Part shown: positions 5,618 to 42,905 of the stretch, in pieces
Position numbering within the stretch: position 1 is the first letter of the stretch
Layout: each line of letters opens with the position of its first letter
Assembly: GCA_015060905.1 (NCBI GenBank)
Contig: SUXQ01000004.1
Coordinates: forward strand, 62,001 to 126,000
Source of the DNA: Bacteroidales bacterium
Lineage (GTDB): Bacteria; Bacteroidota; Bacteroidia; Bacteroidales; Bacteroidaceae
Length of the DNA stretch: 64,000 bases
Direction of reading: 5' to 3'
Translations under genes and position numbers: made by a program
Notes under the pieces: model-generated
What the model saw: the letters and a program-made list of their open reading frames with translations, nothing else
Databases searched by the model: none
What the model was told of the DNA's origin: nothing

Positions 5618-5658
5618 CAAAAATATAATCAAAATATCCGGATTGCAATGCAGAATTA
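5618..5658 (-). promoter_or_regulatory. terminase operon promoter with shared phage-module motif
   Basis: On the minus strand TAATTCTGCA (5658-5649) is followed by exactly 23 bases and then TATTTTTG (5625-5618), 15 bases before the ATG at 5602. The same arrangement stands before the capsid operon, the gene at 19254-19631 and the lysis cassette. A plain -33 element (TTG, 20-base spacer) also overlaps it. Confidence 0.65.
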
Positions 5659-5861
5659 ACACTTTTTTTACGACGGTTGATAATTTTTCTTTTTTTCACA
5701 TAATCTGTTTATGCTTGATTAAGCTCGATATGTGTGTTGCATGGTGTATGAATAAAGCAACAGAATGTAATTTACGTTCCGAAATAAGATGATGCAAATA
5801 ACATCTTTACACTATTGTAACTACCGTTAGGGTAATGAACATTACGATAAAGCCTATAGAT

Positions 5862-6047
5862 ATGAGATTTTTTGATAGAGAACAAGAGTTTGAAAAAATT
5901 AGAGAAATTGAGGAATTGTTTCATTCTATCCCTAGAGTGGAACTCTTTTTTACACATTACAATAAAACGGAATTAATCAGCAAGCATCAACTGCATTGTT
6001 ATATAAATCAAATGAGGCTCACTCATAATGAGAATCACGAGAATTAG
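5862..6047 (+). pseudogene. possible remnant of an AAA ATPase N-terminus
   Basis: About 61 residues that start MRFFDREQEFEKIREIEE, the way many Bacteroidetes and archaeal AAA ATPases of the ATPase_2/DUF234 kind begin. After that similarity is lost and the frame stops before any P-loop. It lies in the otherwise gene-poor gap between the terminase operon and the restriction cassette, which fits a decayed gene. It could also be a chance frame. Confidence 0.3.
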
Positions 6048-6287
6048 TATTTATTGACAGTCATTTAGTTATAATGATTATATCGTGGTTTGGCAACAAA
6101 AACAATAACTCTTTGAAAACTAATTGCTTCAATATTCTTATTAAAAGTGAGTGTGTAGCAAAATAACCAGGCAGAAACAGACCCGATTTGGACTTTTTAT
6201 ATTATCTTTGCATATAAATAGGTGTTCTTTCTTGGAACTATAACATAAATGCAGATAAGGGTGTATGCAAATTATTGACAATGTTAA

Positions 6288-6464
6288 CAGGACATCACTA
6301 TTACTGAGGGCAAGAACGTCGCTGAGCAGATTGCCGAGGATGATGCACATGCCAAACTGATGAAGCAGATTGAACAGTTGGAGCAAAAGGCTCGCATCGA
6401 GAAACAACCTCGCAAGAAGTTGGAACTATTTGAGAAGTTGAAGGAATTGAAGAAAAAACTATGA
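6288..6464 (+). pseudogene. 3' remnant of a DUF4391-like gene
   Basis: An open frame of 58 residues without a start codon, preceded by a stop at 6285. It encodes a strongly helical Lys/Glu-rich end (AEDDAHAKLMKQIEQLEQK, then KLELFEKLKELKKKL) and stops in overlap with the ATG of the next gene. The coiled end resembles the C-terminus of DUF4391 proteins that often stand in type III restriction-modification operons. The overlap with the next gene suggests a former full operon member whose 5' part is gone. The family assignment is tentative. Confidence 0.45.
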
Positions 6465-8152
6465 CGAAGAAACATAAATATGTAGAACCAACTGTCCTCT
6501 TGAAACTATGTGATCTAAAGGAAGATGATGCTCCCGATTTACAGACACTAGTATATCAATTCTCGAGAATTGAATTAATATATTTTGCATTGGAATGGAT
6601 ATACAATCGAGAGTTGTCTATTGGTTATGTCAACTTTTGTAAACGAATCTCACCACAAGATGATGGGAAATTACTTATTGAACATATCAACAAGCATATT
6701 CAGGATAAATCCGTATTAGCAAACTATCATTTAGTTTGTGCCCAAACCGGAATAGAACTTCTTAAATATCTATTTTCTATCCCTGAAAAAAGTGTGCCTG
6801 TAGACTATTGTTCGTTAGAGAATGGTGGTATTATAAAAAGCATACATGTTATGCTTGTCGTATTGCACATAAATGAGCGCATCGTAAACGGATGTGTTCC
6901 AATGTCTGAGGATGATAATGCCAAAGACTCCATTGCGCACGCCGCGGTAATATCAACAATTGAGAATAATGATTTCTTAAACTATGATGTTGCCACAACG
7001 CCATATATTCATTTATACAAAGCATCAAAGTTTTTGAATTTCTGCGATGGAGATTCATACTTTGCAAAGCATAAAGCATCGCTATTGTCTATGTATGGCT
7101 GTGCCGATTCTAAAACATATTTGTCATTTGTAATATGGTTGTTATTAGAGAATTGGAAATATGACGAAGGATATTGTAGGCTTACATTCGACGATGATAA
7201 CTCTGTACCCCAAGCTATAGATAAAATCTCTATACCTATCAGCGAGATTATTAGTATAGATTCAAATAGCGATTACAAGGCATTTCGCGAAAGACCGCTT
7301 ATTAAGTTAGATAACACGCATTATGTAGTCATATGTGTACCATTCTTAATGGATAAGCTATACAATAGTTTAGTATTTGACCTGACAGAAGTTAGCGGAG
7401 ATGGTAATATAACTAGAACAAAAGCATCTTCAGAATTTACAGAACCTTTACTTCTGTACCCACTACTTCGCTCTATTGTTGAACCCCAAAGTCCAATACA
7501 TCTATCTGGTGACGATTGCAAGAAGATTGAACCAAAGCGAGCACCAGACTATTATGTACGGAATTGGAACGATGTGTTTCTATTTGAACTAAAGGATTAC
7601 AGTTTTAGAGCAGATATTAAATCTAATCCGACATTTGATGAACTCGTTGAATATCTACACAAGCAGTTCGTTACAAAAACTAACGGCAAAGATGGAGCAA
7701 TAAGGCAATTAGTTCATAATATCAAAGCCATTGTCAATAACGATTTCGCATGGGATAAAACTCTTCATAAACCTCGACGGATATATCCCATACTAATATT
7801 GGGAAATTCTACTTATATGACACTTGGCATGTCATATATGATTAATAAATTATTTCGAGAAGAACTTCAGAAGGAAGGAGTTTCGGATAGCAGAATTAGT
7901 GATTTGATAGTAATTGATATTGATACATTGATACTATATAAAGGTGTATTCTCTAATCGTAGATATAAGTTTAAAAAAGTATTAGATGACTATTTGACGC
8001 ATATCAATAAAGATTATAGCAAATCAAAAAATCTTGAATTGCGGTTGTATGCTTTTATGCAAACGCTACCAATGTTCTTAAGAAAGTATTATCCAACAAC
8101 CGAAGATTATCTTGTGAATGAATTAAAAAGTATAGATATATGGAAAGATTAA
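6461..8152 (+). CDS. PD-(D/E)XK nuclease-like protein in a type III R-M operon
   Basis: 563 residues, not a member of any family I can name. Residues 1-340 are mostly helical with no motif. Near residue 362 is PDYYV, followed after 12 residues by FELKD (Glu376, Lys378), and a helix with GAIRQLVHNI near 415. This is the order of a PD-(D/E)XK nuclease core with the later Gln-containing helix. The last 130 residues again look structural. It starts in overlap with a gene remnant and its stop overlaps the Mod start by 13 bases, so it is translationally coupled to the methyltransferase. It may add a second nuclease or effector to the system. Low GC and codon use match a horizontally acquired block. 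Confidence 0.7.
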   Translation: MTKKHKYVEPTVLLKLCDLKEDDAPDLQTLVYQFSRIELIYFALEWIYNRELSIGYVNFCKRISPQDDGKLLIEHINKHIQDKSVLANYHLVCAQTGIELLKYLFSIPEKSVPVDYCSLENGGIIKSIHVMLVVLHINERIVNGCVPMSEDDNAKDSIAHAAVISTIENNDFLNYDVATTPYIHLYKASKFLNFCDGDSYFAKHKASLLSMYGCADSKTYLSFVIWLLLENWKYDEGYCRLTFDDDNSVPQAIDKISIPISEIISIDSNSDYKAFRERPLIKLDNTHYVVICVPFLMDKLYNSLVFDLTEVSGDGNITRTKASSEFTEPLLLYPLLRSIVEPQSPIHLSGDDCKKIEPKRAPDYYVRNWNDVFLFELKDYSFRADIKSNPTFDELVEYLHKQFVTKTNGKDGAIRQLVHNIKAIVNNDFAWDKTLHKPRRIYPILILGNSTYMTLGMSYMINKLFREELQKEGVSDSRISDLIVIDIDTLILYKGVFSNRRYKFKKVLDDYLTHINKDYSKSKNLELRLYAFMQTLPMFLRKYYPTTEDYLVNELKSIDIWKD

Positions 8153-10044
8153 AGCTACAAACCACAGATATGGCAGAGCGAAATGTTGAACTGTTGGGAC
8201 AGATGTTCCCGAACTGCTTGACTGAGACGATAAATTCAGATGGCAAGTTGGTGCGTGCTATCGACTTCGATAAGTTGCGTCAGGAGTTGGCGTGCGAGGT
8301 TGTCGAGGGTGCTGATGAGCGTTATCAATTCACTTGGCCCGATAAGCGTGCTGCTATTCGCTTGGCTAATGCCCCCACGAACAAGACGCTGCGTCCTTGC
8401 CGTGAGGAGAGTGTGGATTTCGACAATACCGAGAACCTCTATATCGAGGGCGACAACTTGGAGGTGCTGAAGTTGCTCCGTGAGAACTATTTGGGTAAGG
8501 TGAAGATGATTTATATCGACCCACCATATAACACAGGCAACGACTTTGTCTATAACGATGCCTTTGGAATGAGTAATGATGAGTTTAAGCCACAAAGTGG
8601 TCTTTTCGATGAAGAAGGCAATCGTATGGCAGACCCAATGGTGCAGAATACCGAGAGCAATGGTCGTTTTCACACCGATTGGCTCAATATGATATATCCA
8701 CGTCTTAAAGTAGCAAAAGACCTGCTTTCTGATGATGGAAGTATATTCATTACATTAGATGACCACGAATATTCCAATGCAAAAAAGATATGTGATGAAA
8801 TATTTGGTGAGTCTGATTTCATTGCAACCATTATATGGGAAAATTTTTACGGACGAAGTAATGCTGCTGCTATATCACCATCTCACAACTATATTTTAGT
8901 TTATTCAAGGGCAGGAGAAAATTGGAAAAATATTAGAAATTTATTAGAAAGAAATGAAAAGAGTATAAGCAATTATAAGAATCCTGATAATGACCCTAAG
9001 GGGCCTTGGCGATTAGGGCCAATATTCGCAAGTGGCGAAAGACATCAAGGTTTAATGTATACTATCAAGACTCCTAATGGAGATTTAATCACACCTCCCA
9101 AAGGTAGTCATTGGAGAATGCTCGAAGACGATTTTTGGAAACGAGTAGAAGAAGGTAGTATTGTATTTGGTATGGATGGTAAAGGTTCTCCTGCTACCAA
9201 ATTATATTTATCAGATGTTCAATCGGGATTAGTGCCAAGGTCTCTATGGCTACACGATGAAGCAGGTCATACACAGGATGGAAAAAGGGAGGTTATGTCA
9301 TTATTCCCTGAAGCATCAGTATTTGACACTCCAAAACCTACAAAATTAATTAGACAAATAGTAAAAATCGCTTGCTGTGATAACGATACCATCCTTGACT
9401 TCTTCTCTGGTTCTGCAACAACAGCACACGCTGTAATGCAGTTAAATGCCGAGGATGAAGGCAGTCGCCGTTTTATTATGGTGCAGTTACCCGAACTTAC
9501 CGATGAAAAGAGCGATGCTTACAAGGCGGGATACAAGAACATCTGCGAGATAGGCAAAGAGCGTATCCGTCGTGCAGGAAAGAAAATCAAGGAGGATAAC
9601 GCTAACAAAGCGGGTATCGAGCGACTTGATACAGGCTTCCGTGTATTGAAACTCGACACATCTAATATGGCGGATGTATATTACACTCCTGCTGATACAC
9701 CCATACAGACTACATTGAACTTTGATGCGTTGGTGGATAATATCCGTGAGGGTCGCACCGCCGAAGACCTTTTGTTCCAAGTATTACCCGAATGCAACTT
9801 GCCTTTGTCGAGCAAGATTGAGATACGAGAGATACACGGCAAGAAGGTATTCGTGGTGGAGGATGGCTATTTGATGGCTTGCTTCGACAGCGACATCAAC
9901 GATGCTGTGATTACCGCCATAGCGAAGGAGAAGCCATACTACTTTGTGATGTGCGACCGCTCGATAGCATCCGACAGCGTTGCCGACAACTTCGACCAAA
10001 TCTTTGAGGCGTATAGTAGAGAAACAGTAAGGAGGATATTGTAA
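8140..10044 (+). CDS. type III restriction-modification system methyltransferase subunit (Mod)
   Basis: 634 residues. DPPYNTG (about 127-133) is the catalytic motif IV of N6-adenine methyltransferases, and FSGSATTAHAV (about 421) is the SAM-binding motif I. Motif IV before motif I is the beta order of type III Mod proteins. The ~190 residues between them hold the variable target-recognition region, which has lower GC than the conserved flanks, as expected where specificity domains are exchanged. Mod reads the recognition site and methylates one strand. An alternative start at 8170 is possible. It overlaps the upstream gene by 13 bases and ends one base into the DUF2971 gene start. No simple-sequence tract typical of phase-variable mod genes is seen. 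Confidence 0.9.
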   Translation: MERLKLQTTDMAERNVELLGQMFPNCLTETINSDGKLVRAIDFDKLRQELACEVVEGADERYQFTWPDKRAAIRLANAPTNKTLRPCREESVDFDNTENLYIEGDNLEVLKLLRENYLGKVKMIYIDPPYNTGNDFVYNDAFGMSNDEFKPQSGLFDEEGNRMADPMVQNTESNGRFHTDWLNMIYPRLKVAKDLLSDDGSIFITLDDHEYSNAKKICDEIFGESDFIATIIWENFYGRSNAAAISPSHNYILVYSRAGENWKNIRNLLERNEKSISNYKNPDNDPKGPWRLGPIFASGERHQGLMYTIKTPNGDLITPPKGSHWRMLEDDFWKRVEEGSIVFGMDGKGSPATKLYLSDVQSGLVPRSLWLHDEAGHTQDGKREVMSLFPEASVFDTPKPTKLIRQIVKIACCDNDTILDFFSGSATTAHAVMQLNAEDEGSRRFIMVQLPELTDEKSDAYKAGYKNICEIGKERIRRAGKKIKEDNANKAGIERLDTGFRVLKLDTSNMADVYYTPADTPIQTTLNFDALVDNIREGRTAEDLLFQVLPECNLPLSSKIEIREIHGKKVFVVEDGYLMACFDSDINDAVITAIAKEKPYYFVMCDRSIASDSVADNFDQIFEAYSRETVRRIL

Positions 10045-11009
10045 TGGCAAATATAGGATACAAATATAGGGCTAACCTTGCTGATGAAAAAGGGAATCGT
10101 AGAGATACAATTTCACTAGTCAGAGGAGAGTTATATGCCCCTAAGTTGAAAGACTTAAATGATCCATTTGAAGGTTCGGTTGATTTGCCAAATGCGGAGA
10201 GTGAATCTTATTGGGTTACTCCACTGCTTCAACAAAGTTATAAAGTTGGTGTATATTCGATGTCGAAACAAAAAGAAGAAAACTTCCCTTGTAATGAGTT
10301 ACTATGGGCGCATTATGCTAATTCGCACCAGGGATTCTGTATTGAATATGACTTAGACAAACTCGATACTAGCATTACTGACATTATTGATTATAGAATA
10401 GATGTGAAGTATCAAGAAAATAAGCCAACCATTTTACCAAATGATTCAATAGAGGAAAAGATTAAAAAAGCATTTTCTACAAAGTCGTTGCCATGGGCAT
10501 ACGAGAATGAATATAGGCTAGTATTCGGTTCTAGCGGAGTAAAGAAAGTTGCTTATGAGGCTATTAGAGCAATATACTTTGGCTTAAAAATGTCATTGAC
10601 AGAAAGGAATGCAATCATTAATGGTTTGAAGCATAAAGGTGTCAAGTTCTATCAAATAGAACGAGTAGCCAAAGACTATAAGTTGAGTGCAAGCAAATTG
10701 TTGTTTGATTATACCCATGAGATTGTAAATATTGAAAATTTACCAACCGTAACCAATTACATTATTTGGTATAAGTCTCCTAACAAGGATAAAAGTAGTG
10801 TAGAAGACTTTATGTGTCAAATAAGAAAGAAATTGAAGCCAAAGAGTAATATCACTTTGATAGATGATATGAAAGCATTACCTATCTTAGTCAATTATAG
10901 GCCACATACGATTACAGCAGAGGAGACAGAAATAAAGGCTAAACATTGGATTGCGTATTCCACATTTGGATCTCCTGAATGCGTTTGGATGTACCCAGAA
11001 AGGATATAG
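10044..11009 (+). CDS. DUF2971 family protein within the R-M operon
   Basis: 321 residues. The N-terminal ~170 match the DUF2971 pattern: early YKYR, then LYAPKLKDLNDPFEG, CNELLWAHYANSHQGFCIEY near residue 95 and WAYENEYRLVF near 155. The remaining ~150 residues are not recognised. The biochemical function of the family is not established. It stands between mod and res, reusing the last base of mod and ending two bases before the res start, so it is a true operon member rather than a bystander. Such inserted genes are often accessory defence factors; that is inference. Confidence 0.7.
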   Translation: MANIGYKYRANLADEKGNRRDTISLVRGELYAPKLKDLNDPFEGSVDLPNAESESYWVTPLLQQSYKVGVYSMSKQKEENFPCNELLWAHYANSHQGFCIEYDLDKLDTSITDIIDYRIDVKYQENKPTILPNDSIEEKIKKAFSTKSLPWAYENEYRLVFGSSGVKKVAYEAIRAIYFGLKMSLTERNAIINGLKHKGVKFYQIERVAKDYKLSASKLLFDYTHEIVNIENLPTVTNYIIWYKSPNKDKSSVEDFMCQIRKKLKPKSNITLIDDMKALPILVNYRPHTITAEETEIKAKHWIAYSTFGSPECVWMYPERI

Positions 11010-11011
11010 TT

Positions 11012-14000
11012 ATGAAATTCAAATTTAAGATACAACAATATCAGACCGATGCGGTAGAACGCACTGTGGAGGTGTTTGCAGGACAGCCATCCGTTGATAG
11101 TCTTGCGTATCGCCGAGACCTCGGTAAGCGTGCGGCGACTCTCTATGATGATGAGTTGGAGATGGGTTATCGCAATAGCGACGTGCAACTAACATCGTCG
11201 CAGTTGCTTGAGAATATCCACAAAGCACAAGCCGCCGGGGATATTAAACTGTCAAGTTGTCTTGCCCCAAGCATAGGAGCGTGTAGCCTTGATATTGAGA
11301 TGGAGACAGGAACGGGTAAGACCTATGTGTATATCAAGACGATGTTCGAGTTGAACAAGCGTTATGGTTGGAGCAAGTTTATCGTTGTTGTGCCAAGCAT
11401 TGCTATCCGTGAGGGTGTAGGCAAAAGTTTCGCTATGCTCGAAGGCCACTTTATGGAGCACTACGGCAAGAAAGCTCGTTGGTTTATCTACGATAGTAGT
11501 CGTTTGAAGAGTCTTGATGACTTTTCGAGTGATGCAGGTATAAATGTGATGATTATCAATACTCAGGCTTTTGCATCATCGTTGAAAGAAGGAGCAAAGA
11601 ACAAAGAGAGTAAGATTATTTACTCGAAACGTGATGACTTTGCGAGTCGCCGTCCGATTGATGTGATTGCAGCGAACCGTCCGATTATCATTATGGACGA
11701 GCCACAGAAGATGGAGGGAGAGGCTACACAGACCGCTCTCAAACGCTTTATGCCATTGTTCATCCTTAACTACTCGGCAACACACAAGACCAAGCACAAC
11801 ACCGTATATGCTCTTGATGCTCTCGATGCCTACAACAAGAAACTCGTAAAGAAGATTCAGGTTAAGGGCTTCGAGGTAAAGAACCTAAAAGGAGCATCAA
11901 GTTATCTCTATATTGATAGCATCATCCTATCAAAGAACGACCCACCGATGGTTAAAATAGACCTTGAGATGAATACAGCATCAGGAATACGCCGTAAGTC
12001 TGTGAAGTTCGGCAAGGGAGATAAATTATATAGTGCCAGCGGTCTTAAACAATACGAAGGCTTCGATATTGCAGAGATTAATCCATATACAGACACCGTT
12101 ACATTCCTCAATGGCATAACACTCCGTAAGGGTGAAGTATTCGGCGACAGTAGTGAGTTGGCAATGCAGCGTGTTCAGATTCGTGAGACCATCGTTTCGC
12201 ACTTTGAGAAGGAGCGTGAATTGTTTGCACGAGGCATTAAGACACTTTCGCTGTTTTTTATCGACGAAGTAGCAAAATACAAAAGTTATAACGCCGAAGG
12301 AGAGACCGAGCAGGGCGTATTTTGGAAGATATTTGAGGAGGAGTATGTCAATATCCTCAATGAAAATCTATCGCTGTTTGACTCCGATTATCAGCAGTAT
12401 CTACGCCGATTCGATGTGAGCGAAATACATAATGGATACTTCTCAATCGACAAGAAAGGTCGTTCGGTAAATAGTGAAGTGAAGCGTGGTCGTGATACTT
12501 CGGACGATATATCGGCTTACGACCTTATCCTAAAGAACAAGGAGCGTCTGTTGAGCTTTGACGAGCCTACACGATTCATCTTCTCACATTCAGCACTGCG
12601 TGAGGGTTGGGATAACCCCAATGTATTCCAAATCTGCACGCTCCGACACGCTAATTCGGCAACAGCCAAGCGACAGGAGGTGGGACGAGGTTTGCGTATC
12701 TGTGTGGATGCAAATGGTAATCGTATGGACTTTGAGACTCTCGGAGAGAATATCCACGAGTTGAACAAACTGACCGTGATTGCCAATGAGAGTTATAGCA
12801 ACTTCGTAGGCGACTTGCAGCGTGAAACCCGTGATGTGCTCCGCGACCGTCCTACCAAGGCTGATGAGGCATACTTCACAGGCAAACTCGTATTTGTGGG
12901 TGATGAAAAGCGTGCCATTACAGCAGAGGAAGCAAATTCTATCCGTGCATATCTCTGGGATAACGATTATATCGACGATAAGGGGCAGGTTACAGAGCAG
13001 TATAAGACAGATTTGGCAGAAGGCAGCCTCGCTCCTATGTCCAAGAAGTTGGCTCCTATGGCTGACAGCATACAGTTATTGATTCGTGCATTGTATGATG
13101 AGTCTGTGGCTATTGATTCAATGTTTGAGGATGGTAATGCTACCGTTGTCAAGGAGAATAAGTTGAACGATAACTTTGCCAAGGAGGAGTTTCAAGCACT
13201 ATGGAAGGAGATTAACCATAAGTATGCCTACACAGTTCACTACAACAGTCAAGAGTTGATTGAAAAGGCTGCACTGCACATAAACGCGGACCTCGAAGTA
13301 AATCAGTTGCGTTATGTTGTGGTTACAGGCGAGCAGGATAGTGTTGATGCTTTCGGTAGCACATCTTCTACCTCAAAACGAGTTGGAACCATATCAACTT
13401 CTACTGTTAAATACGATCTGGTTGGAGAAATCGCACGAGGGGCAACACTTACCCGCAGAACTGTTGTCGAGGTATTGAAGAAACTAACTCCTTCAACATT
13501 GGTTAAGTTCCAAAACAATCCTGAGGAGTTTATCCGTAATGTGATTAAGATTATCAAGGAGCAGAAAGCTACAATGATTGTCGAACACATATCGTATAAC
13601 TTGATCGAGGGACAGTACGACAGTACAATCTTTACACAAGAGAAATCCTCACAGTCACTTAGCAAAGCATATTCTGCAAAGAAGCACATTATGGACTATG
13701 TTTTCAGTGACTCTGATGTAGAACGAAAATTTGCTTCTGCTCTTGATGATGCACCAGAGGTGTGCGTATATGCGAAGTTACCTCGTTCATTCCAAATTCC
13801 TACACCAGTAGGTAATTATGCTCCCGATTGGGCAATTGTTTTCAAGAGTGGAGATGTAAAACATATATTCTTCATTGCTGAAACTAAAGGCTCATTGGAT
13901 TCTATGGAGCTAAGAGGAGTTGAGAAGGCTAAAATTGCGTGTGCTAAGAAGTTGTTTAATGAGACCTCATCTGGCAAGGTTAAATATAATGCTGTTGCTA

Positions 14001-14038
14001 ACTTTGAGGAACTACGTGATGCCTTGATAGGCAGATAA
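11012..14038 (+). CDS. type III restriction-modification system endonuclease/helicase subunit (Res)
   Basis: 1008 residues from the ATG at 11012, preferred over the frame's earlier start at 10979 because it follows the DUF2971 stop directly and has AAGGA upstream. Superfamily 2 helicase motifs are in order: METGTGKTYV (about 97), DEPQ (about 228), YSAT (about 255) and QEVGRGLRI (about 556). At the C-terminus PDWAIV (about 937) and FIAETKG (about 953) form the PD-(D/E)XK nuclease site that cuts DNA in type III enzymes. All key residues are present, so the enzyme looks intact. It works with Mod after ATP-driven sliding between two opposed sites. A hairpin terminator follows immediately. Confidence 0.9.
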   Translation: MKFKFKIQQYQTDAVERTVEVFAGQPSVDSLAYRRDLGKRAATLYDDELEMGYRNSDVQLTSSQLLENIHKAQAAGDIKLSSCLAPSIGACSLDIEMETGTGKTYVYIKTMFELNKRYGWSKFIVVVPSIAIREGVGKSFAMLEGHFMEHYGKKARWFIYDSSRLKSLDDFSSDAGINVMIINTQAFASSLKEGAKNKESKIIYSKRDDFASRRPIDVIAANRPIIIMDEPQKMEGEATQTALKRFMPLFILNYSATHKTKHNTVYALDALDAYNKKLVKKIQVKGFEVKNLKGASSYLYIDSIILSKNDPPMVKIDLEMNTASGIRRKSVKFGKGDKLYSASGLKQYEGFDIAEINPYTDTVTFLNGITLRKGEVFGDSSELAMQRVQIRETIVSHFEKERELFARGIKTLSLFFIDEVAKYKSYNAEGETEQGVFWKIFEEEYVNILNENLSLFDSDYQQYLRRFDVSEIHNGYFSIDKKGRSVNSEVKRGRDTSDDISAYDLILKNKERLLSFDEPTRFIFSHSALREGWDNPNVFQICTLRHANSATAKRQEVGRGLRICVDANGNRMDFETLGENIHELNKLTVIANESYSNFVGDLQRETRDVLRDRPTKADEAYFTGKLVFVGDEKRAITAEEANSIRAYLWDNDYIDDKGQVTEQYKTDLAEGSLAPMSKKLAPMADSIQLLIRALYDESVAIDSMFEDGNATVVKENKLNDNFAKEEFQALWKEINHKYAYTVHYNSQELIEKAALHINADLEVNQLRYVVVTGEQDSVDAFGSTSSTSKRVGTISTSTVKYDLVGEIARGATLTRRTVVEVLKKLTPSTLVKFQNNPEEFIRNVIKIIKEQKATMIVEHISYNLIEGQYDSTIFTQEKSSQSLSKAYSAKKHIMDYVFSDSDVERKFASALDDAPEVCVYAKLPRSFQIPTPVGNYAPDWAIVFKSGDVKHIFFIAETKGSLDSMELRGVEKAKIACAKKLFNETSSGKVKYNAVANFEELRDALIGR

Positions 14039-14469: not shown

Positions 14470-14510
14470 TAATTCTGCAACCTTCAACGGGACATTCTGC
14501 TTTTACTTTG
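14470..14510 (+). promoter_or_regulatory. capsid operon promoter with shared phage-module motif
   Basis: TAATTCTGCA (14470-14479), 23 bases, then TTACTTTG (14503-14510), 25 bases before the scaffold-like ATG. This is the same spacing as the terminase operon promoter. Confidence 0.65.
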
Positions 14511-14535: not shown

Positions 14536-15336
14536 ATGAACAAAAATTATCAAAATCAAGAACAAATGCCGCTCGATGGCTACAATGCCGAGCAGCAACA
14601 GGTGCAGCCGGTAGCCGGCGAATCGGTACAGACTGATGGTGGTGCGACTAATCCTTACGCGAGACTCGAGGAGTGGTTGCAGAATTTTTTCGGAGAATCG
14701 TTTAAGCTCGATGCTCCTGAGTCGCAAGAGATGTTGAAGAATTTTTTCCGTAGCAATGTAGAGCAGAATGAGCGTCTGGCCTCGGTGCTCGAGCTTGACC
14801 CGCGTCTGGCGCAACTGTTGGCGGACGTCGTGCAGGGAAAGCGCAGTGCTCATGCTGCAATGGCACGATACTATGGAAAATCGTTCTTTGACCATGAAGA
14901 GGGTTCGCCCGAGTATGAGGAGATGTTGCGCATGGATGAGGAGCGACGCAACGAGGCTTACGAAATGGCAAATAATCGCCGAGAGTATGAGGCTAACCTC
15001 GAAAGAAGCCGTCCGATAATCGAAAATTTCTGTCGCGAGCATGGTTACGAGCCTGCCGAATTTATGGACCGTGTGTGGGAGCAGCTTGTGTTTCCTATTC
15101 TTTCGGGAACTTACACCCGGGAAGTTTGTCAGGCATTGGAGCATGCGATAAACTATGAGCAGGATGTTGAGGATGCTTTTGCTGCAGGAAACATCAAGGG
15201 ACGCAACACTAATATTCGTCGCATGCAAGAGGAATTTGGCGACGGCCTTCCCAAAGGCATGAGCAGTGTAGCCCCGGTACAGGAGCAGCGTCGCCCGAAA
15301 GGTAACAGCCTGATTGATGCGGCTCTAAAGGCTTAA
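14536..15336 (+). CDS. putative capsid scaffolding protein
   Basis: 266 residues, very acidic and helical, with a Gln-rich disordered start (QQQVQPVAGE), a middle dominated by helices (EEMLRMDEERRNEAYEMANN) and a basic tail ending RRPKGNSLIDAALKA. No enzymatic motif. A charged helical protein directly upstream of the capsid-like gene is the usual position and make-up of a phage scaffolding protein, which guides procapsid assembly and is then removed. This is inferred from composition and position, since scaffold sequences diverge quickly. It is the first gene of the plus-strand capsid operon. Confidence 0.6.
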   Translation: MNKNYQNQEQMPLDGYNAEQQQVQPVAGESVQTDGGATNPYARLEEWLQNFFGESFKLDAPESQEMLKNFFRSNVEQNERLASVLELDPRLAQLLADVVQGKRSAHAAMARYYGKSFFDHEEGSPEYEEMLRMDEERRNEAYEMANNRREYEANLERSRPIIENFCREHGYEPAEFMDRVWEQLVFPILSGTYTREVCQALEHAINYEQDVEDAFAAGNIKGRNTNIRRMQEEFGDGLPKGMSSVAPVQEQRRPKGNSLIDAALKA

Positions 15337-15398: not shown

Positions 15399-17018
15399 AT
15401 GAAAAAATTCATTTTGTTTGTTAAGAAGAATCCTATGTTTGTTCTTCTTTCATTGGTAAGCATTGCTTTGTGTCTCTTCGAGGAGAACGCGGGAGGTGTG
15501 TTAATGGCGATGGCAACGGTTGTTGCTCCCGGCTCGCCGGTTGCGTCAAAGGGTATTGCCGGTTATGCGACACATGGTAGCGGTGAGGCTACAACCGTTT
15601 CAAATGCGTCGGAGCTTGGTGGTGAGTTTATTCAGCCGGAGATTGACTCGAAGATTACGATGATTGCGAGCGATGAGAGTATCATCGACACTATCAAACG
15701 TAAAATTACTCGTCAGGTACCTGTTACCTCTTTCGAGGTTGATCACTATCTTATCGACGAGAAGCGTTCAAAGGCTACTACAAGTGCCGAGTATGAGGGA
15801 ATGAATTCCACTCGTGCCGAGATTCCTTTTGCTACCACTGCCGACCGTAAGATTTTCCAGGAATATTACACTGCTATTTGCAAGGGTGTCAATGGCTACG
15901 ACTCGACCGGACAGACTGAGCTTCCCGGCGTAGACCTTATGCTGTTCTTTGTCAGCAAGAATAGTACAACCGAGGCTCCTATTGCAATGGCGGTGAATGG
16001 TCCCAAAGTAAACGCGACCGATGATTATTGTGTGGTTCCCACAATTCCTGCCGGCACCGAGGTTATACTTTTGTCGTCGGCTGCGTACGAGACTCAGAAA
16101 TTTATTGCTCCCAGCACCATTGTGCCTGTTCCCGAGCGTATGTACTTGCAGAAACAGTTGTGCAACAGCATTGTGAGTGATTACTTCAAGGCTCAGAAAA
16201 AGCGTTTGCCTTTCAGTCAGTCGCAGATTGCCGAGGCTGTTCTTCGTCAGTTCCGTCTGGAGTCGTGCCGTACAGCGTGGGTCGGTCAGCCCGGAAAGTT
16301 CAAGGTGCAGGCAATGGATGCTGCAATGGGTTATCAGTGGGATTATTTCTCAAAGGGATTGCGCTGGCAGTTCAAACGTCAGTATGACCTTTCGTCTACA
16401 ATTACTTTTGCCGACCTTATTAACCTGTCTATGGTTAAGTTCACAGGTTACAACTGTTCGAAAAAAGCTATCTGGTTGTTGGGTAAGCAGTTGCTGAACG
16501 ATATTCAGAAGATTGACCTTACACTGCACAAAAATATCACTGTTACCGGCAGTAAGGTGTTCGACCTTGAGTGTACAAAGATACATACTGTATTCGGAGA
16601 TATTGACCTTGTTCACGACCCCACACTCGATGCGCTTGGTTACTCGCACTGCGGTGGCCTTATCGACGAGAATGGCCTTGTGCGTTACTGGATGAAGAAC
16701 GAGGATTGCAAGAGCGAGAATGTCGAGGGCGAGGAGGCTAAACGCGAGGTTGTAATGACAATCGACTGTTTGTGTTTGAAGGGTTACTCGCACATTTGGG
16801 TGAATGGTGCAAATGCTGCAGCGAGAAGTATTCCCGGTGCTTCGCGCGTGATAAGCTCGGATACCTTGCCCGAATCGCCTGCGGTGAATGATGTTGTTAT
16901 TCTCACTGCCGATGTTCTTAAGGAGGATGGACAGACTGTGAAGTTTGCTGCGGGTACTGTTGTTACCTACACAGGCAGCAGTTGGATTGAGTTTACCGGC
17001 GAAATTATGGCTGCATAA
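15399..17018 (+). CDS. putative major capsid protein
   Basis: 539 residues. I place it as the major capsid protein from its position after the scaffold-like gene, its size and its mixed composition with long beta stretches; no catalytic motif is visible. The first ~45 residues are unusual: Lys-rich, then a strongly hydrophobic stretch (VLLSLVSIALCLF) and a second weaker one, before a Gly/Ser-rich start of the main domain (about residue 50). This could be a cleaved delta-like domain, a membrane contact or a wrong start. An internal ATG near residue 37 exists. The last ~55 residues (from SRVISSD) look like an added small beta domain. Head fold prediction would settle the call. Confidence 0.65.
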   Translation: MKKFILFVKKNPMFVLLSLVSIALCLFEENAGGVLMAMATVVAPGSPVASKGIAGYATHGSGEATTVSNASELGGEFIQPEIDSKITMIASDESIIDTIKRKITRQVPVTSFEVDHYLIDEKRSKATTSAEYEGMNSTRAEIPFATTADRKIFQEYYTAICKGVNGYDSTGQTELPGVDLMLFFVSKNSTTEAPIAMAVNGPKVNATDDYCVVPTIPAGTEVILLSSAAYETQKFIAPSTIVPVPERMYLQKQLCNSIVSDYFKAQKKRLPFSQSQIAEAVLRQFRLESCRTAWVGQPGKFKVQAMDAAMGYQWDYFSKGLRWQFKRQYDLSSTITFADLINLSMVKFTGYNCSKKAIWLLGKQLLNDIQKIDLTLHKNITVTGSKVFDLECTKIHTVFGDIDLVHDPTLDALGYSHCGGLIDENGLVRYWMKNEDCKSENVEGEEAKREVVMTIDCLCLKGYSHIWVNGANAAARSIPGASRVISSDTLPESPAVNDVVILTADVLKEDGQTVKFAAGTVVTYTGSSWIEFTGEIMAA

Positions 17019-17134: not shown

Positions 17135-17563
17135 ATGAAAAGAAAAGTTACTTACGAAATAAGAGGTCAGATTGAGCGTAGTTGTTATTTCCGCGTGGGA
17201 AAGGCACTGTTGCGTGTGGATTTTACGGGTGGGTCTATTAATTCGGCGGGAATGACGCCTGCCAATTATACTACCGACAATGCTCTTTATCAGAAGGCTA
17301 TCGAGAATAGTGAACAGTTTCGCTCGGGCGAGATTGTGATTGGCGCTACCGAGAAGATTGTCGAAAAGGAGCCTGCCGACAATGTTGCGTCTGCCGAGAA
17401 TAAGGGTAACAAAGAGGTTTTTGTCAATGTGACAAATATGCAGCAGGCACGCAGTATGCTTATGGCCGAGCCTTATAATGTTTCTCTTTCGGAGCTTCAG
17501 AATAAGCAGGCTGTGCGTGGCAAGGCCGAAGAATTGGGTGTATCTTTTCCTAATTGGTTATGA
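17135..17563 (+). CDS. phage-type protein of the capsid operon
   Basis: 142 residues. It begins with a beta-rich part (KVTYEIRGQIERSCYFRVGKALLRVDFTGG) and continues with a low-complexity Glu/Lys/Asn region and a short helical end (AEELGVSFPNWL). No family or catalytic motif is recognised. It is separated from the capsid-like gene by a hairpin and its stop overlaps the next start (ATGA), which couples it to the 209-residue protein. Head decoration or head-tail joining would fit the position. Confidence 0.55.
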   Translation: MKRKVTYEIRGQIERSCYFRVGKALLRVDFTGGSINSAGMTPANYTTDNALYQKAIENSEQFRSGEIVIGATEKIVEKEPADNVASAENKGNKEVFVNVTNMQQARSMLMAEPYNVSLSELQNKQAVRGKAEELGVSFPNWL

Positions 17564-18189
17564 TTGCCCGGAGTGTGCTTGTAGATAAGGTCCGCACGTT
17601 GCTGAACGAGGTGCGGGGCGAGGGTGGTGTTTCGCTTATAACCGACGATACTCTGTTGCTCGACACGTATATTACAGAATTGTTACCCGAGGCTGTGCTT
17701 TTCATTCAGATGAATAGGGGACGAGGGGTGGTGAACGGTAAAAACTTCGCAGATTGCAATGTTTCTGTCACGAACGATGGGAAAGGGGTGATTGTATTGC
17801 CCGAGGATTATGTTCGTCTCGTTTCGCTTAAGTTGGATACGTGGAAAAAGCCTTGCTCGGCAACTGCCGAGGTAAATTCGCCGACAGATTGTGCGCAGCA
17901 TAATAAATATATGCAGGCGGGAGTATATTCCCCTGTGTGTGTCGAGGTTTCAACCGACGAGGGGGTGCTATTGGATGTCTACCCTGTGGATGCAGACACT
18001 GCGCCTGTGGTGGAGTATTTAATTTACGAGGCTCGCTACGATGGCAGCAAAGGGCTTGCGACGAGAAACGAGTATCTTATTCAGGCTGTTGCTTATCAGT
18101 GTGCCGGACTTGTATGTAATGTTTTTGAGAAGTATGAGGCTGCAAACTCTTTCTTGGGATTGGCAGCGGCTTTGTGTAACAATAAATAG
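17560..18189 (+). CDS. putative head-completion/neck protein
   Basis: 209 residues from the ATG at 17560; an in-frame TTG two codons earlier is less likely because ATG overlaps the previous stop as ATGA. The start (VDKVRTLLNEVRGEGGVSLITDDTLLLDTYITELLPEAV) and the later strand pair plus a helix containing LIQAVAYQCAGLV resemble gp6/gp15-type head-tail connector proteins in layout. There are no motifs to confirm it. It sits in the third position after the capsid-like gene, where connector genes commonly lie. Confidence 0.55.
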   Translation: MIARSVLVDKVRTLLNEVRGEGGVSLITDDTLLLDTYITELLPEAVLFIQMNRGRGVVNGKNFADCNVSVTNDGKGVIVLPEDYVRLVSLKLDTWKKPCSATAEVNSPTDCAQHNKYMQAGVYSPVCVEVSTDEGVLLDVYPVDADTAPVVEYLIYEARYDGSKGLATRNEYLIQAVAYQCAGLVCNVFEKYEAANSFLGLAAALCNNK

Positions 18190-18197
18190 ATTTTAAT

Positions 18198-18479
18198 ATG
18201 GCAGTAGTGAATGTTTCATTCGATAAAAATGGGGCTGTGTGGGAGACTGCCCCTATAATATCCACCGGCGGCGACATAAGGGTGCGCGTACATAAGGCGG
18301 GACCTTATCCGGTGGAGGTGTTTGTGAGCATTGACGGGGTAGAGGAGTATCTTTTTCACGACGATTTTGGAATCGATGAAAATAAATGCGAAATTACCCT
18401 GCTTGGAGTGATGCCCGGGCAGCATATTAAGCTGTGCTGTAACAGTGAACTTGAACTTGTGAAAATACTCGAGGCGTAA
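18198..18479 (+). CDS. small beta-rich phage-type protein
   Basis: 93 residues, predicted almost all beta: alternating strands such as VVNVSFDKNGAVWETAP and VEVFVSIDGVEEYLF, with Ile/Val/Gly-rich turns. There is no Cys pair, no catalytic motif and no signal. It starts 9 bases after the preceding stop. Small beta sandwiches in this position in phage operons are often head decoration or fibre-like proteins, but nothing in the sequence proves that here. Confidence 0.55.
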   Translation: MAVVNVSFDKNGAVWETAPIISTGGDIRVRVHKAGPYPVEVFVSIDGVEEYLFHDDFGIDENKCEITLLGVMPGQHIKLCCNSELELVKILEA

Positions 18480-18597: not shown

Positions 18598-19017
18598 ATG
18601 AATATACAGATTGATAAAAAAAGTGTGATTGATGGGGTGCATCGTCAAACGGCGTTACTTGCTCTGAAGAATGAAAATGGAGAGACTATTGCTTACAGCG
18701 AAGATGATGAGGTCAGGGTAGAGCCTTTGTGGGTGGCTGCGCTCGATGAACTGTTGCAGTTGTTGTTGCCGTATGCCCGTGTGTCGGTTGCCGATGATAC
18801 TGCCGATTTTTTACTTTCTCTTCCGGCTAATTGGGACGATGCGCAGGTGGAAGCGTTGCAGCAACTTGCGAAAAACTATGTGACAACTGCGCTTACTGCA
18901 CGTTGGCTCGACAATATTAAGCCCGACTCGGCTATGCTCTTGCGGTCGTTGAACAGTAGCACCGGTACTGCCATCAACGAATTGTTGTTTGCGAGGAAAA
19001 AGCCCTTAAGGGAATAA
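18598..19017 (+). CDS. phage-type protein, last gene of the capsid operon
   Basis: 139 residues. An initial basic part with short strands is followed by helices: LWVAALDELLQLLLPY, then AQVEALQQLAKNYVTTALTARWLD and a final helix ending in ARKKPLRE. The series acidic/Leu helix, ALTARWL helix, basic end is like the two small proteins of the terminase operon (4168-4641 and 4647-5156), suggesting a shared origin. The function is unknown and a neck role is inferred. It ends the plus-strand run, and a bidirectional hairpin follows 180 bases later. No tail genes appear downstream. Confidence 0.55.
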   Translation: MNIQIDKKSVIDGVHRQTALLALKNENGETIAYSEDDEVRVEPLWVAALDELLQLLLPYARVSVADDTADFLLSLPANWDDAQVEALQQLAKNYVTTALTARWLDNIKPDSAMLLRSLNSSTGTAINELLFARKKPLRE

Positions 19018-19253: not shown

Positions 19254-19631
19254 TTATTTGTCAAACGACCAGAAAATAATATTTTCCCCCGTAAGCGGTT
19301 TACGAATTTTCAGTGTCGCCTCGTGTATGTACCTGCCTTTGTTGTACAGCAACACTTTTCCCACGACACAATCGTTGCAATCGTCGGGAATAACATTGAT
19401 GACCATGCGGTGTTTGTTGTTGGAGAGAATATTCCTGCGCTCCTCGAGAAAATCACGAACAAACCTCTGCTCGTGAAATTTTCTGTGAATACAATAATAC
19501 TCGACAAGGTGACTGCACCATTCCTTTTCTCTTCTGAAGAGTTTGTCGCGCAAATATTCGTACCATTCGAGACATTTTTCGATAATTCGCTCACGCAATG
19601 ACGCTTTCCGGCATAATTCTTTTTCGTTCAT
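19254..19631 (-). CDS. unknown small basic protein co-regulated with the phage-type operons
   Basis: 125 residues, no family recognised. The first 70 residues are helical and rich in Arg, Glu and Tyr/Trp (RERIIEKCLEWYEYLRDK); the last 50 are beta-rich (VINVIPDDCNDCVVGKVLLY). A Cys pair (DDCNDC) is visible but no full zinc motif. Its promoter carries the same TAATTCTGCA-N23-TACATTTG arrangement as the terminase and capsid operons, and the repressor gene is divergent from it. These facts make a regulatory or particle-related role plausible but unproven. Confidence 0.55.
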   Translation of the reverse strand: MNEKELCRKASLRERIIEKCLEWYEYLRDKLFRREKEWCSHLVEYYCIHRKFHEQRFVRDFLEERRNILSNNKHRMVINVIPDDCNDCVVGKVLLYNKGRYIHEATLKIRKPLTGENIIFWSFDK

Positions 19632-19777: not shown

Positions 19778-19795
19778 ATAGCCAAATTTGGCTAT
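19778..19795. promoter_or_regulatory. candidate repressor operator palindrome
   Basis: ATAGCCAAATTTGGCTAT, a perfect 18-base palindrome, lies between the divergent 19254 gene and the S24-type repressor gene, 108 bases before the latter's start. It has the form of a site for a dimeric HTH repressor, probably autoregulation. Confidence 0.5.
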
Positions 19796-39931: not shown

Positions 39932-39965
39932 TGTTGTCAGGAAGTTACTTAAATGTATATGATTG

Positions 39966-40443: not shown

Positions 40444-40938
40444 CTATCTTACATAGTCTTTAAGCAGTTCCTGTAACTTTGTGCGTGCAGTATGTATGCG
40501 ACTTTTTACTGTACCAATGGGAACATTCAGTCCCTCGGCAATTTCGTGATATTTGTAACCATCGGCATACATTGAAAATGGCAAACAATATTCTATGGGC
40601 AGACTGTTTATTGCACATATTATTTCGTGCGCATCAATGTAACAGTCGCGATATTCGCCGTCGAAGATTGCTCCGTCGGCTATTGAAACACTGCGAGCGG
40701 AACGTACACGTTCATTTAGGAATATATTATACATTATCGTTGCAGCCCAGCCTTTGAAGTTGCCATTATACACAAAGCTATCGAAATTACACAACACTTT
40801 TACAGATGTATCTTGAAGAAGGTCGGCGGCACGCCCTATGTCACCGGTCAAACTAAAGGCGTAGGTCTTAAGAAGAGGCAGTATTGCTATTAACTTTTCG
40901 CCTATTGTTTCGTCATTAGGAGTATGTTGAGAATTCAT
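40444..40938 (-). CDS. ECF-family RNA polymerase sigma factor
   Basis: 164 residues. Region 2 contains DLLQDTSVKVLCNFDSF and NFKGWAATIMYNIFLNERV (about 40-80, -10 recognition and core binding). Region 4 has LPIEYCLPFSMYADGYKYHEIAEGL and PIGTVKSRIHTARTKL (about 112-155), the -35 helix-turn-helix. It directs RNA polymerase to a dedicated set of promoters. No anti-sigma (FecR-like) gene is next to it, so control is unclear. Whether it drives the unusual phage-module promoters cannot be told from the sequence. Confidence 0.92.
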   Translation of the reverse strand: MNSQHTPNDETIGEKLIAILPLLKTYAFSLTGDIGRAADLLQDTSVKVLCNFDSFVYNGNFKGWAATIMYNIFLNERVRSARSVSIADGAIFDGEYRDCYIDAHEIICAINSLPIEYCLPFSMYADGYKYHEIAEGLNVPIGTVKSRIHTARTKLQELLKDYVR

Positions 40939-41224: not shown

Positions 41225-41298
41225 CTCTTCCTCTTGGACTTGAACCAAGGACCCTCTGATTAACAGTCAGATGCTCTAACCGACTGAGCTAAGGAAGA
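41225..41298 (-). tRNA. tRNA-Asn (GTT anticodon)
   Basis: 74 bases fold as a cloverleaf: acceptor TCTTCCT/AGGAAGA, D arm GCTC...GAGC, anticodon loop CTGTTAA (GTT), T arm CTTGG TTCAAGT CCAAG, discriminator G. CCA is not encoded. A promoter (TTG, 20 bases, TACTTTTG at 41345-41338) precedes it on the minus strand. The gene lies beside the phage lysis cassette; tRNA genes are common integration sites. Confidence 0.95.
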
Positions 41299-41541
41299 AT
41301 TTTTGTCTGAAGATTTACTCTTCTTCGTTTGACGATGCAAAAGTAGTGCTTTGTTTTTAATTATCCAACTATTTTGCGTTTTTTTTTCGAGAAATCTACA
41401 TTTTCATATGAAACATATATAAAAAACAGGTATTTGACTGAAATAGATTTCCGAATCATCCAAAATACGCACGATAATTAGTGATAATTCTTCACGTTTC
41501 TTTTATAAGAATATACGAGTATTCCAGAGAATATATGAAAT

Positions 41542-41916
41542 TTATCTTTTAATAAAAATAATAATTCCCGCGAGCAGTGGCACAATCCACAATGCCGCGC
41601 CTCCAAGTTCCAGCTTCCTCTGCTGCCAAAAAGTTAGGGGCTTTTCCACCTCCACTATTTTTGCAACAGTGTCGCAGCGCACCACACTCACCGTGTCGCG
41701 CACAATCCTGTCACGATAAACATACTTTAAACACTGTTTAAAAACTGTGTCAGCCTTTGTTTCCACAAACACACTGTCGCGCTCATAGATGCTGTCGCGC
41801 ACTACTTTTGCAATAAACACGCTATCCACTCGCACCGTCTCCACAGGCACGTACCTTGTAGAGGTGCAGCCTCCAACCAACAGCGCAAATAAAAAAACAA
41901 CAAACAGACGCATCAT
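41542..41916 (-). CDS. unimolecular spanin-like lipoprotein of the lysis cassette
   Basis: 124 residues. N-terminal lipoprotein signal (LFALLVGGC, lipidated Cys about 17), an extended beta-rich repetitive middle (VRVDSVFIAKVVRDSIYERDSVF, then RDRIVRDTVSVV), and a C-terminal membrane segment (AALWIVPLLAGIIIF). Lipid anchor at one end and membrane helix at the other is the layout of u-spanins, which link inner and outer membranes and fuse them in the last step of phage lysis. The stop-start overlap with the lysozyme gene supports one lysis operon. The family itself is not named. Confidence 0.7.
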   Translation of the reverse strand: MMRLFVVFLFALLVGGCTSTRYVPVETVRVDSVFIAKVVRDSIYERDSVFVETKADTVFKQCLKYVYRDRIVRDTVSVVRCDTVAKIVEVEKPLTFWQQRKLELGGAALWIVPLLAGIIIFIKR

Positions 41917-42377
41917 TGCTCACTTAAAAACATTTCACACTCACGCCGGCGACGCTTCACAAGCCCCGGCAATTTCTCTTTCTTCCCGCCGACGGTACCA
42001 TACACCCATTTGCCAAACTCCCGGGCAACCTCCTCAGCCGAAGCACCCATGCACAATTTTTTGCGCATCGTCGAGGTCTGAAAAGCCCCGGTACCCACGT
42101 TGAAAATAAAACTCACAAGAGCATCGAACATCCCTTGCGTCAATATTTTTGCAAACGACTGCCTGTTCAGGTAACGCTCGAAACGCCCAACATCCTCGCG
42201 CAGCAACGCCATCGCCTGTTCCTCAGTGATTATCAACCCCCGGCTGATGGGAAGGCCATCGACACCACCCGTATGCCCCACGCCAATCGTCCACACCCCC
42301 GCAGGGCACTTGTACGCCTTTAGTTCCAATCCCTCAAAGGCGATAATCATCTGCAACCCCTTATCACTTATCTGCAT
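41913..42377 (-). CDS. phage lysozyme (GH24 endolysin)
   Basis: 154 residues from the ATG at 42377 (MQISDKGLQMI); the longer frame from 42416 adds a basic stretch overlapping the holin gene. The T4-type catalytic spacing is present: Glu in AFEG, 8 residues to Cys, 5 residues to Thr (TIGVGHTGG). NVGTGAF and the late LPGLVKRRRRECEMFL are conserved in phage GH24 enzymes. It cleaves peptidoglycan between MurNAc and GlcNAc. No signal peptide, so it needs the holin to reach the wall. Second gene of the holin-lysozyme-spanin operon. Confidence 0.92.
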   Translation of the reverse strand: MQISDKGLQMIIAFEGLELKAYKCPAGVWTIGVGHTGGVDGLPISRGLIITEEQAMALLREDVGRFERYLNRQSFAKILTQGMFDALVSFIFNVGTGAFQTSTMRKKLCMGASAEEVAREFGKWVYGTVGGKKEKLPGLVKRRRRECEMFLSEQ

Positions 42378-42849
42378 TTCTATCCTCCTTTCTCTGTTTG
42401 ATAATTTCCGCCACAAACGGCAAGGTCTTTACGAACGCCAACGTCAGCGCGTTGTAAAGTAGGTCCACTGCCTTGTAAGCAGGCGTTTCGTTACGTAGCA
42501 CACTGCGAATGTTGCGCACAATATTGGTCGAGTAGCAATATACAAGAATCCAGCAGAATGATGACACACATTGGTTAAGCACCTCCTCGCACATATTCTG
42601 AAAATAGCCTATTCCATAGAGCGACGCACACAGCGTAAAAAACATTGTCGCATGTGTGATACAGGTAATCGCCTTTCGCATGGAAAAATCCTTGCCACGC
42701 AACACATCCGCCAACAATCCGAATAAAAAGTTCAGCCCGAAAAGCCACACAAGAGCAATAAAATTACTCTCTATGGGAGCAAAAAAAGCGAGCATTTCCG
42801 AAAGTATCCCGATGATTGCCGCTTTTACGAAAGTTATAAAATCGTTCAT
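42364..42849 (-). CDS. phage holin
   Basis: 161 residues with about four membrane segments: IIGILSEMLAFFAPI, ALVWLFGLNFLFGLLADVL, ATMFFTLCASLYGIGYF and VSSFCWILVYCYSTNIV, then a charged C-terminal tail. This is the Bacteroidetes phage holin type found before lysozymes. It would make membrane holes to release the endolysin. It is the first gene of the lysis operon and overlaps the lysozyme start by 14 bases. Its promoter shares spacing and the TAATTC core with the terminase and capsid promoters. Confidence 0.8.
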   Translation of the reverse strand: MNDFITFVKAAIIGILSEMLAFFAPIESNFIALVWLFGLNFLFGLLADVLRGKDFSMRKAITCITHATMFFTLCASLYGIGYFQNMCEEVLNQCVSSFCWILVYCYSTNIVRNIRSVLRNETPAYKAVDLLYNALTLAFVKTLPFVAEIIKQRKEDRNADK

Positions 42850-42864
42850 ATTTACTTTTTACTG

Positions 42865-42905
42865 CAAAGAAAATAACATATGCGTCGAACGAGTTTGTTG
42901 AATTA
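42865..42905 (-). promoter_or_regulatory. lysis cassette promoter with phage-module motif
   Basis: On the minus strand TAATTCAACA (42905-42896), exactly 23 bases, TTTCTTTG (42872-42865), 15 bases before the holin ATG. The motif is weaker than at the other three promoters (TAATTC kept, TGCA changed to AACA) but the spacing is identical. Confidence 0.5.

Follow-up and report, generated by a model that had tools for sequence, protein, structure and literature searches.

Dispersed phage-particle genes sharing a promoter element suggest a domesticated, gene-transfer-agent-like system in a genus of gut Bacteroidales

Introduction

The gene transfer agent (GTA) RcGTA is encoded by dispersed particle genes that are kept by the host; it is siphovirus-type, belongs to the alphaproteobacteria and stands under GafA control. 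The GTAs studied in detail are mostly from alphaproteobacteria (PMC12946183). For the Caulobacter agent CcGTA (GafYZ, IHF, RogA), the activator GafY acts at about 18 promoters, near -35, together with the housekeeping sigma factor (PMC11150451). With FpGTA of Faecalibacterium, both particles and packaged DNA have been shown (PMC12946183). Among the matches listed for open-licence PubMed Central papers, none was titled or opened on a GTA of Bacteroidota. Here, we analysed a 64,000-nucleotide window (positions 62001-126000 of contig C18) from a 2.54-Mb draft genome of a Bacteroidales bacterium, in which four promoters with a common upstream element precede terminase, capsid and lysis genes and a small gene, p125. 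We consider it likely that these promoters belong to the regulon of a domesticated, short-tailed (P22/SU10-like), GTA-like system that is inherited vertically. Genomes, contigs and fetched loci are labelled G, C and L, respectively.

Results

A sequence-only reading of the window had described four promoters, each with exactly 23 bases between a 10-mer and an 8-base box, and had given the lysis copy a weaker motif; coordinates, spacing and the drift of the lysis copy from the consensus were all borne out. Site 1 (TAATTCTGCA-N23-TATTTTTG, 5658-5618, minus strand) lies ahead of the terminase operon, site 2 (TAATTCTGCA-N23-TTACTTTG, 14470-14510, plus strand) ahead of the capsid operon and site 3 (TAATTCTGCA-N23-TACATTTG, 19725-19685, minus strand) ahead of p125. 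The drifted site 4 (TAATTCAACA-N23-TTTCTTTG, 42905-42865, minus strand) precedes the lysis genes. A weight matrix trained on 47 non-redundant sites from relatives, with the window left out, scored above 8 at exactly these four places in the window (capsid 42.3, p125 31.5, lysis 25.2, terminase 14.8); the next best score was 7.0. In 200 simulated windows taken together, 58 matches exceeded 8 and eight exceeded 14, so the terminase site is the weakest when taken alone. With the matrix, neither 20-kb flank of the window yielded a match, and 223 kb from other families yielded a single weak one. TAATTC alone was tried as a motif and rejected, with 42 occurrences in the window vs 57.5 expected.

The upstream regions were then compared with those of relatives. 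The terminase promoter aligned with those of the close relatives L060, L061, L063 and L091, in which the upstream element varies, and the p125 promoter aligned with L063 and L091. A better copy of the lysis promoter, nearer the consensus, was present in G046, whereas G002 and G031 had no clear copy.

In the genome from which the window comes, TAATTCTGCA-N23-NNNNTTTG occurred in eight exact copies vs one of the reversed pattern, and with TAWTTCTGCA in place of the 10-mer there were 11 copies vs one. This genome-wide search, which the sequence-only reading had proposed, thus revealed enrichment of the full pattern. The copies were not scattered at random: most of those whose context was read precede particle genes, but BspA-like genes, an ATPase gene and one spot without a clear gene are also among the places. 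The same element stands ahead of operons for portal/ejection, tail muzzle and tail fibre proteins on other contigs, and the particle operons are spread, among other genes, over at least four contigs of the draft. The C29 copy precedes an operon for a 183-aa protein, a 99-aa protein, a 1493-aa internal protein and the portal (P22_portal, 2.8e-39); divergent from it is an 82-aa gene with a copy of its own. On C25 the element precedes a 1009-aa protein, the tail muzzle, whose orthologue gave a model [mean predicted local distance difference test (pLDDT) 67] matching the phicrAss001 tail muzzle, the SU10 tail and P22 gp10. The C31 copy is ahead of a tail-fibre protein (Phage_fiber_2, 3.7e-9). Further copies precede a small GIY-YIG-like gene (0.0016, below cut-off) and two DUF6973 cassettes on C14 (copies with two mismatches; one cassette has two internal stops), and one copy on C26 has no convincing gene downstream. 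The list of two-mismatch copies comprises many places, for part of which the gene context was read.

Some copies were observed outside the particle operons. The element lies upstream of an AAA_15/AAA_21 ATPase gene, possibly of a defence type (L039:10068-11372, plus strand). Genes for BspA-like leucine-rich surface proteins (L031, L036, L037, L038; by eye) share an upstream repeat with the element, its box mostly drifted to TATCTTCG. A strong copy at L034:9941-9981 (minus strand; score 38.4) is followed by no clear gene and then by a hairpin-like terminator; it perhaps belongs to a small RNA or a decayed cassette.

The genus was searched in 44 genomes, including that of the window. TAATTCTGCA proved to be the commonest form of the element in this clade, but the conserved core is GCAACCTT with TG-N-CA upstream, which sits 18 bases ahead of a canonical Bacteroidetes -7 box. 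Over 104 sites from the window's genome and the loci of relatives, the consensus was TGtCAaTTCAGCAACCTTgt, then TAccTTTGC. The distance from GCAACY to the box was 20 bases in 96 of the 104, 19 in eight and 21 in none (reversed pattern: five sites), and the spacing that is exactly 23 at the four window sites is 22-23 across species. GCAACCTT-N18-TNNNTTTG had 125 matches vs five for the reversed pattern and was found in 36 of the 44 genomes; in 26 other Bacteroidales genomes the counts were five vs five, nothing beyond chance. By gene, the matrix matched ahead of the scaffold gene in 29/33 cases, the first terminase-operon gene in 20/37 and t169 in 24/37, and never ahead of t160 (0/37), p93 (0/23) or terL (0/43), counts that involve some circularity, as these loci also supplied training sites for the matrix. 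An ACGCG/TACGCG word between the divergent capsid and terminase promoters was dropped as a candidate, since it was present in just 10 of 30 intergenic regions. The element is kept ahead of the same particle genes in related species. Together with the particle operons on other contigs, this strongly supports the earlier proposal that one regulon, as read from sequence, joins physically separate clusters.

TerL gave a match in 43 of the 44 genomes. It is a core gene in 42 of them: the G016 copy, 44% identical and in a prophage-like cluster, was excluded, and TerL was absent from G006, which is 63% complete. The portal gene was found in 41 of 44. Capsid, portal, terminase, tail and lysis genes are phage-derived and have been kept open, apart from a few genomes with stops. 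We fetched 45 TerL loci, 34 of which also hold the capsid gene (three, L094, L097 and L098, are outside the core set); scaffold and terminase operons are divergent in 34/34. Among the 11 loci without a capsid gene, the contig ends first in seven, and L104 is a distant copy from Muribaculaceae. In ten genomes TerL and portal share a contig, and five of these clusters were fetched whole. In four of the five (G014, G055, G053, G003) the host ATP synthase operon, identified by Pfam for seven of its genes, lies between the portal/ejection and capsid/terminase modules; in the fifth, G040, the two modules adjoin. Neither integration nor replication genes were noticed in the window set or in the open reading frame (ORF) listings of the five whole clusters, which were read by eye with no dedicated search; a tyrosine recombinase does lie beside a module in some relatives. 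The sequence-only reading had called the promoters phage-type; what it had not seen is that the phage-particle genes behind them form a genus-wide, probably domesticated set and not an ordinary prophage.

Trees of TerL, portal and gyrA were built from 30 genomes holding all three genes. Each comparison shared 17 of 27 splits, vs about 0.2 with shuffled labels. Distances correlated with those of gyrA at r=0.62 for TerL and 0.77 for portal (32 genomes), and none of 2000 permutations was as high. The ratio of non-synonymous to synonymous substitution rates (dN/dS) was 0.03-0.06 in five TerL pairs and 0.02-0.06 in two portal pairs, with two further portal pairs saturated. We conclude from these comparisons that TerL and portal are inherited vertically under strong purifying selection. 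Tree agreement, distance correlation and low dN/dS are marks of a kept host function. Gene content, dispersal, mode of inheritance, selection and the shared promoter element can all be read from the genomes themselves.

The downstream box of the element is the canonical TAnnTTTG of sigma-ABfr promoters, which also have a -33 TTTG (PMC7366714). The element occupies the position where this -33 TTTG is expected and so replaces it as the sequence-only reading had claimed, except that site 1 keeps a TTG 20 bases before its box. For two extracytoplasmic function (ECF) sigma regulons of B. thetaiotaomicron, a link to a non-canonical promoter has been reported, in one case with TGTT near -10 (PMC12596196). 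The canonical box here and the different promoter of those two regulons favour an activator working with the housekeeping sigma factor. Most likely, a dedicated activator at the element recruits RNA polymerase with the housekeeping sigma factor, as GafY does in Caulobacter. Two observations concern ECF genes nearby: an ECF sigma gene lies at 40444-40938 (minus strand), ~600 bases past the end of the lysis cassette and beyond a tRNA-Asn gene, and two ORFs, ECF-like as judged from their sequence, are near a site on C19.

Beside p125 (19254-19631, minus strand; conserved in relatives, no match in Pfam or PHROG) lies an S24 gene (19904-20536, plus strand) for a candidate LexA/CI-like repressor (PF00717, 4.9e-9; A95-G96, S129). 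Ala-Gly, Ser and Lys are present in 8/8 of the S24 proteins; the S24 domain was found by Pfam and the helix-turn-helix was read from the sequence, not from a model. The spacing of Ala-Gly and Ser is that of LexA/CI repressors. A 16-bp palindrome, TAGCC-N6-GGCTA (19779-19794), the only copy in the window, lies between the S24 gene and p125 and is a candidate S24 operator. It occupies the same place in strict form in L063, L091, G053 and G040 and in degenerate forms only in G014, G055 and G003; in 19 of 37 relatives it also overlaps the terminase promoter. A role as operator of the regulon genome-wide was rejected, since the palindrome was not enriched over the reversed control across the genus; it was kept as a local operator candidate. 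We propose an S24 repressor circuit with moderate confidence.

Several of the regulon copies belong to cassettes for effector-like proteins. A DUF6973 cassette query matched in 21 of 44 genomes, in three of them only in the shared N-terminal part, and several matches were fragments or had stops. After excluding eight loci without a matched 5' end and one that was too short, 21 upstream regions were kept, which two repeats reduced to 19 distinct ones (four belong to genes matched at the N-terminus only). The element was present ≤28 bases from the start, with a matrix score ≥20, in 18 of these 19. The 420 control windows from the same loci, some overlapping true sites, had a 95th percentile of -6.8 and a 99th of 30.0. 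On reading, an N-terminal RPSIFEIATAFEDG-like stretch is common to DUF6973 and DUF5675 bodies, some of which precede small lipoprotein-like ORFs. Loading of such proteins into particles is our guess. Among the tail-fibre-like proteins of relatives, two contain enzyme domains (GDPD; a weak GDSL lipase match). A literature search on DUF6973/DUF5675 gave nothing useful.

A prophage on G009:C6 encodes related proteins (TerL 60%, capsid 71%, portal 56% identical to the set) but differs by its tyrosine integrase, antirepressor, helicase/methylase and 4176-aa internal protein and by the lack of any matrix match above 8. The nearest TerL (39-40%) and capsid (24%) in a phage collection were those of the Bacteroides phages BS-TP4, BF1-TP2 and BKO1-TP3. 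BS-TP4 has a similar gene order; unlike the set, however, these are 64-68 kb phage genomes, and BS-TP4 had one weak motif match (11.8; 42 of 64 kb scanned). The TerL-like gene of BS-TP4 (PQ571277.1, 20340-22436) is publicly annotated as a tail spike protein. TerL relatives with 39-46% identity were found in 32 of 392 other Bacteroidales genomes sampled. In G302, G335, G071, G064, G131 and G111, genes for TerL, portal, ejection, capsid or muzzle proteins occur singly or in small groups among other genes (secA is near in G302 and G111, rplU in G111), and no strict motif match was obtained in any of the six. By eye, an AT-rich word resembling GATTTTATAANTAT recurs upstream of several particle genes in other Bacteroidales families (L299-L310); it may represent another regulon element.

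The remaining window genes follow their promoters. Downstream of promoter 1 (5618-5658), on the minus strand, are a 146-aa protein that is a putative TerS by position (5162-5602; phrog_27246, unknown function, 1.5e-17; its orthologues adjoin terL), the conserved particle genes t169 (4647-5156; phrog_19255, 8e-6) and t160 (4168-4650; phrog_19255, 7e-4), and TerL (2147-4171; phrog_2, 6e-20). Promoter 2 is followed on the plus strand by a scaffold protein so assigned by position (14536-15336; phrog_22323, 1.7e-12; adjoining the capsid gene in 34/34 loci holding both) and the SU10-type major capsid protein (15399-17018). The window capsid protein itself had no Pfam match, and 12 of 26 aligned members matched PF17236 SU10_MCP (best 4e-11); no PDB sequence match was obtained, and the AlphaFold model was too poor to use (pLDDT 46.7). 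This protein and its relatives have, by eye, a hydrophobic, membrane-segment-like N-terminus, seemingly unusual for a capsid. Next come p142 (17135-17563; kept in the loci of relatives), a weakly SU10-adaptor-like candidate head-tail adaptor (17554-18189; PF24175, E=0.0068, below cut-off; phrog_22135, 1.4e-14), p93 (18198-18479; kept in the loci of relatives) and p139 (18598-19017; phrog_19255, 9e-5); p142, p93 and p139 are conserved particle genes. The lysis genes behind promoter 4 (minus strand) encode a holin-like protein (42364-42849; PF05105, 3.8e-4, just below cut-off), an endolysin of phage lysozyme type (41913-42416; PF00959, 1.2e-39) and a candidate Rz-like spanin (41542-41916; phrog_456, E=0.037; position kept in relatives). 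An N6/N4 methylase, a DUF2971 protein and a type III restriction enzyme lie between the divergent capsid and terminase operons (6461-14038). Both flanking promoters are recognisable despite these genes; in relatives the two operons are 103-444 bases apart in 33 of 34 loci and 2053 in one.

Discussion

From these data we infer an activator, repressor action, induction, particle formation and packaging of host DNA. Promoters with a housekeeping-sigma -7 box and TG-N-CA-N5-GCAACCTT instead of the -33 TTTG would most likely be bound by a dedicated activator that recruits RNA polymerase. The system is probably kept silent by the LexA/CI-like S24 repressor encoded beside p125, which would bind TAGCC-N6-GGCTA at the promoter of its own gene and, in many relatives, also where this palindrome overlaps the promoter of the terminase operon. 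DNA damage would relieve this repression. Once on, the system would make particles, package DNA by TerL and lyse the cells.

That AT-rich promoters resemble each other by chance is extremely improbable. TAATTC by itself is not enriched and site 1 alone scores just 14.8, but a matrix trained on relatives picks only the four window sites, the full patterns far outnumber their reversed controls in the genome (8 vs 1) and the genus (125 vs 5), and the promoters align in relatives. It is also quite unlikely that a temperate podovirus integrated as an ordinary or decaying prophage and was broken up by rearrangement in this strain. The complete prophage in G009, the Bacteroides phages with ~40% TerL identity, the tyrosine recombinase near some copies and the element or its variant in IMG/VR contigs would fit such an origin. 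However, core copies occur in nearly all genomes, agree with the gyrA tree and have low dN/dS, relatives have the ATP synthase operon inside the set, and no replication genes were noticed by eye in the five whole clusters (no dedicated search was made). Where a temperate prophage is contiguous and mobile, with integrase and replication genes, as the G009 prophage illustrates by contrast, the present set is not contiguous.

A serious rival to the activator, which we regard as possible while doubting it, is a dedicated ECF sigma factor for which the motif would serve as the -35 element. GCAACCTT resembles ECF -35 elements, its spacing is rigid (mostly 20 bases after GCAACY) and ECF genes lie near the lysis cassette and the C19 site. 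The box, however, is the sigma-ABfr TAnnTTTG and not an ECF-specific -10 (PMC7366714), the two B. thetaiotaomicron ECF regulons, in that species at least, use a non-canonical promoter (PMC12596196), and reading through the ORF listings for the five whole clusters, with no dedicated search, turned up no ECF gene. As for function, the particle might be mainly a killing or protein-delivery device (tailocin-like or an effector-loaded capsid) instead of serving gene transfer. The effector-like DUF6973/DUF5675 cassettes under the shared promoter and the enzyme domains of the two tail-fibre-like proteins point in this direction; purifying selection on TerL and portal suggests DNA packaging instead, and no direct link ties the effector proteins to the particle, and we consider this explanation rather unlikely.

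Several findings weigh against a domesticated, vertically inherited system under host control. The TerL and gyrA trees disagree at 3 of 18 well-supported TerL splits, and the gyrA and portal trees at 1 of 13. The TerL gene of G018 and the portal genes of G045 and G013 are broken by stops, and L069, L080 and L082 have terminase genes but no capsid operon despite room on the contig. A tyrosine recombinase lies beside a module in G052, G040, G039, G032 and G003, with a fragment in G013; its presence in about six relatives argues against full immobility. It could be a relic integrase, an invertase or a later guest. Host genes beyond terL differ between species, which indicates that the loci have moved. 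Eight of the 44 genus genomes have no strict motif match, including the well-assembled G042, G002 and G017, although promoters of the nearly complete G042 and G002 carry variant elements. Some of the 125 matches repeat with near-identical inner sequence and may be intragenic. The matrix also scores in the IMG/VR contigs L243 and L244 (best 27.2, ahead of a scaffold gene), and weak scores precede the portal genes of Bacteroides timonensis (9.4) and UBA7335 (10.2), so the element may have been inherited as a phage late promoter and not reflect wiring by the host. The palindrome is absent from the window's own terminase promoter and lacks genome-wide enrichment in the genus (3 copies vs 0 in the window's genome). 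Finally, this genome is a draft of 31 contigs and 87.5% completeness. As an observation on the recombinase, its copies are 60-75% alike between species (L174:3768-4961, L171:15628-16827, L287:10849-11394).

If the GTA-like reading is true, a genus-wide, vertically kept set in gut Bacteroidales would add a further route of gene flow in a dominant gut phylum; the gene set also has counterparts in other Bacteroidales families. With the exact promoter word, much of the regulon can be listed from sequence, and the word can serve as bait for the putative activator and offers a clear reporter test. A wider scenario is one we advance only tentatively, as we doubt it overall: an ancient, order-wide, podovirus-type GTA of Bacteroidales, scattered among housekeeping genes, might here have been rewired to one activator-dependent promoter and a LexA-like switch. 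It might have recruited polymorphic effector-immunity cassettes with a shared N-terminal module for loading into or release with particles, so that one burst would both transfer DNA and attack neighbours.

Among known systems, RcGTA likewise has dispersed, host-kept particle genes, but they are siphovirus-type, alphaproteobacterial and under GafA control. FpGTA belongs to another phylum and has demonstrated particles; the GTA-like set of Bacteroidales has more operons, effector-like cassettes and an S24 gene, and the word 'promoter' is absent from the main text of the FpGTA paper (PMC12946183). CcGTA provides the regulatory parallel: there, one activator serves about 18 promoters near -35 under a repressor, and we propose a similar arrangement for this set, but the element and the sigma factor differ and the particle here is podovirus-type (PMC11150451).

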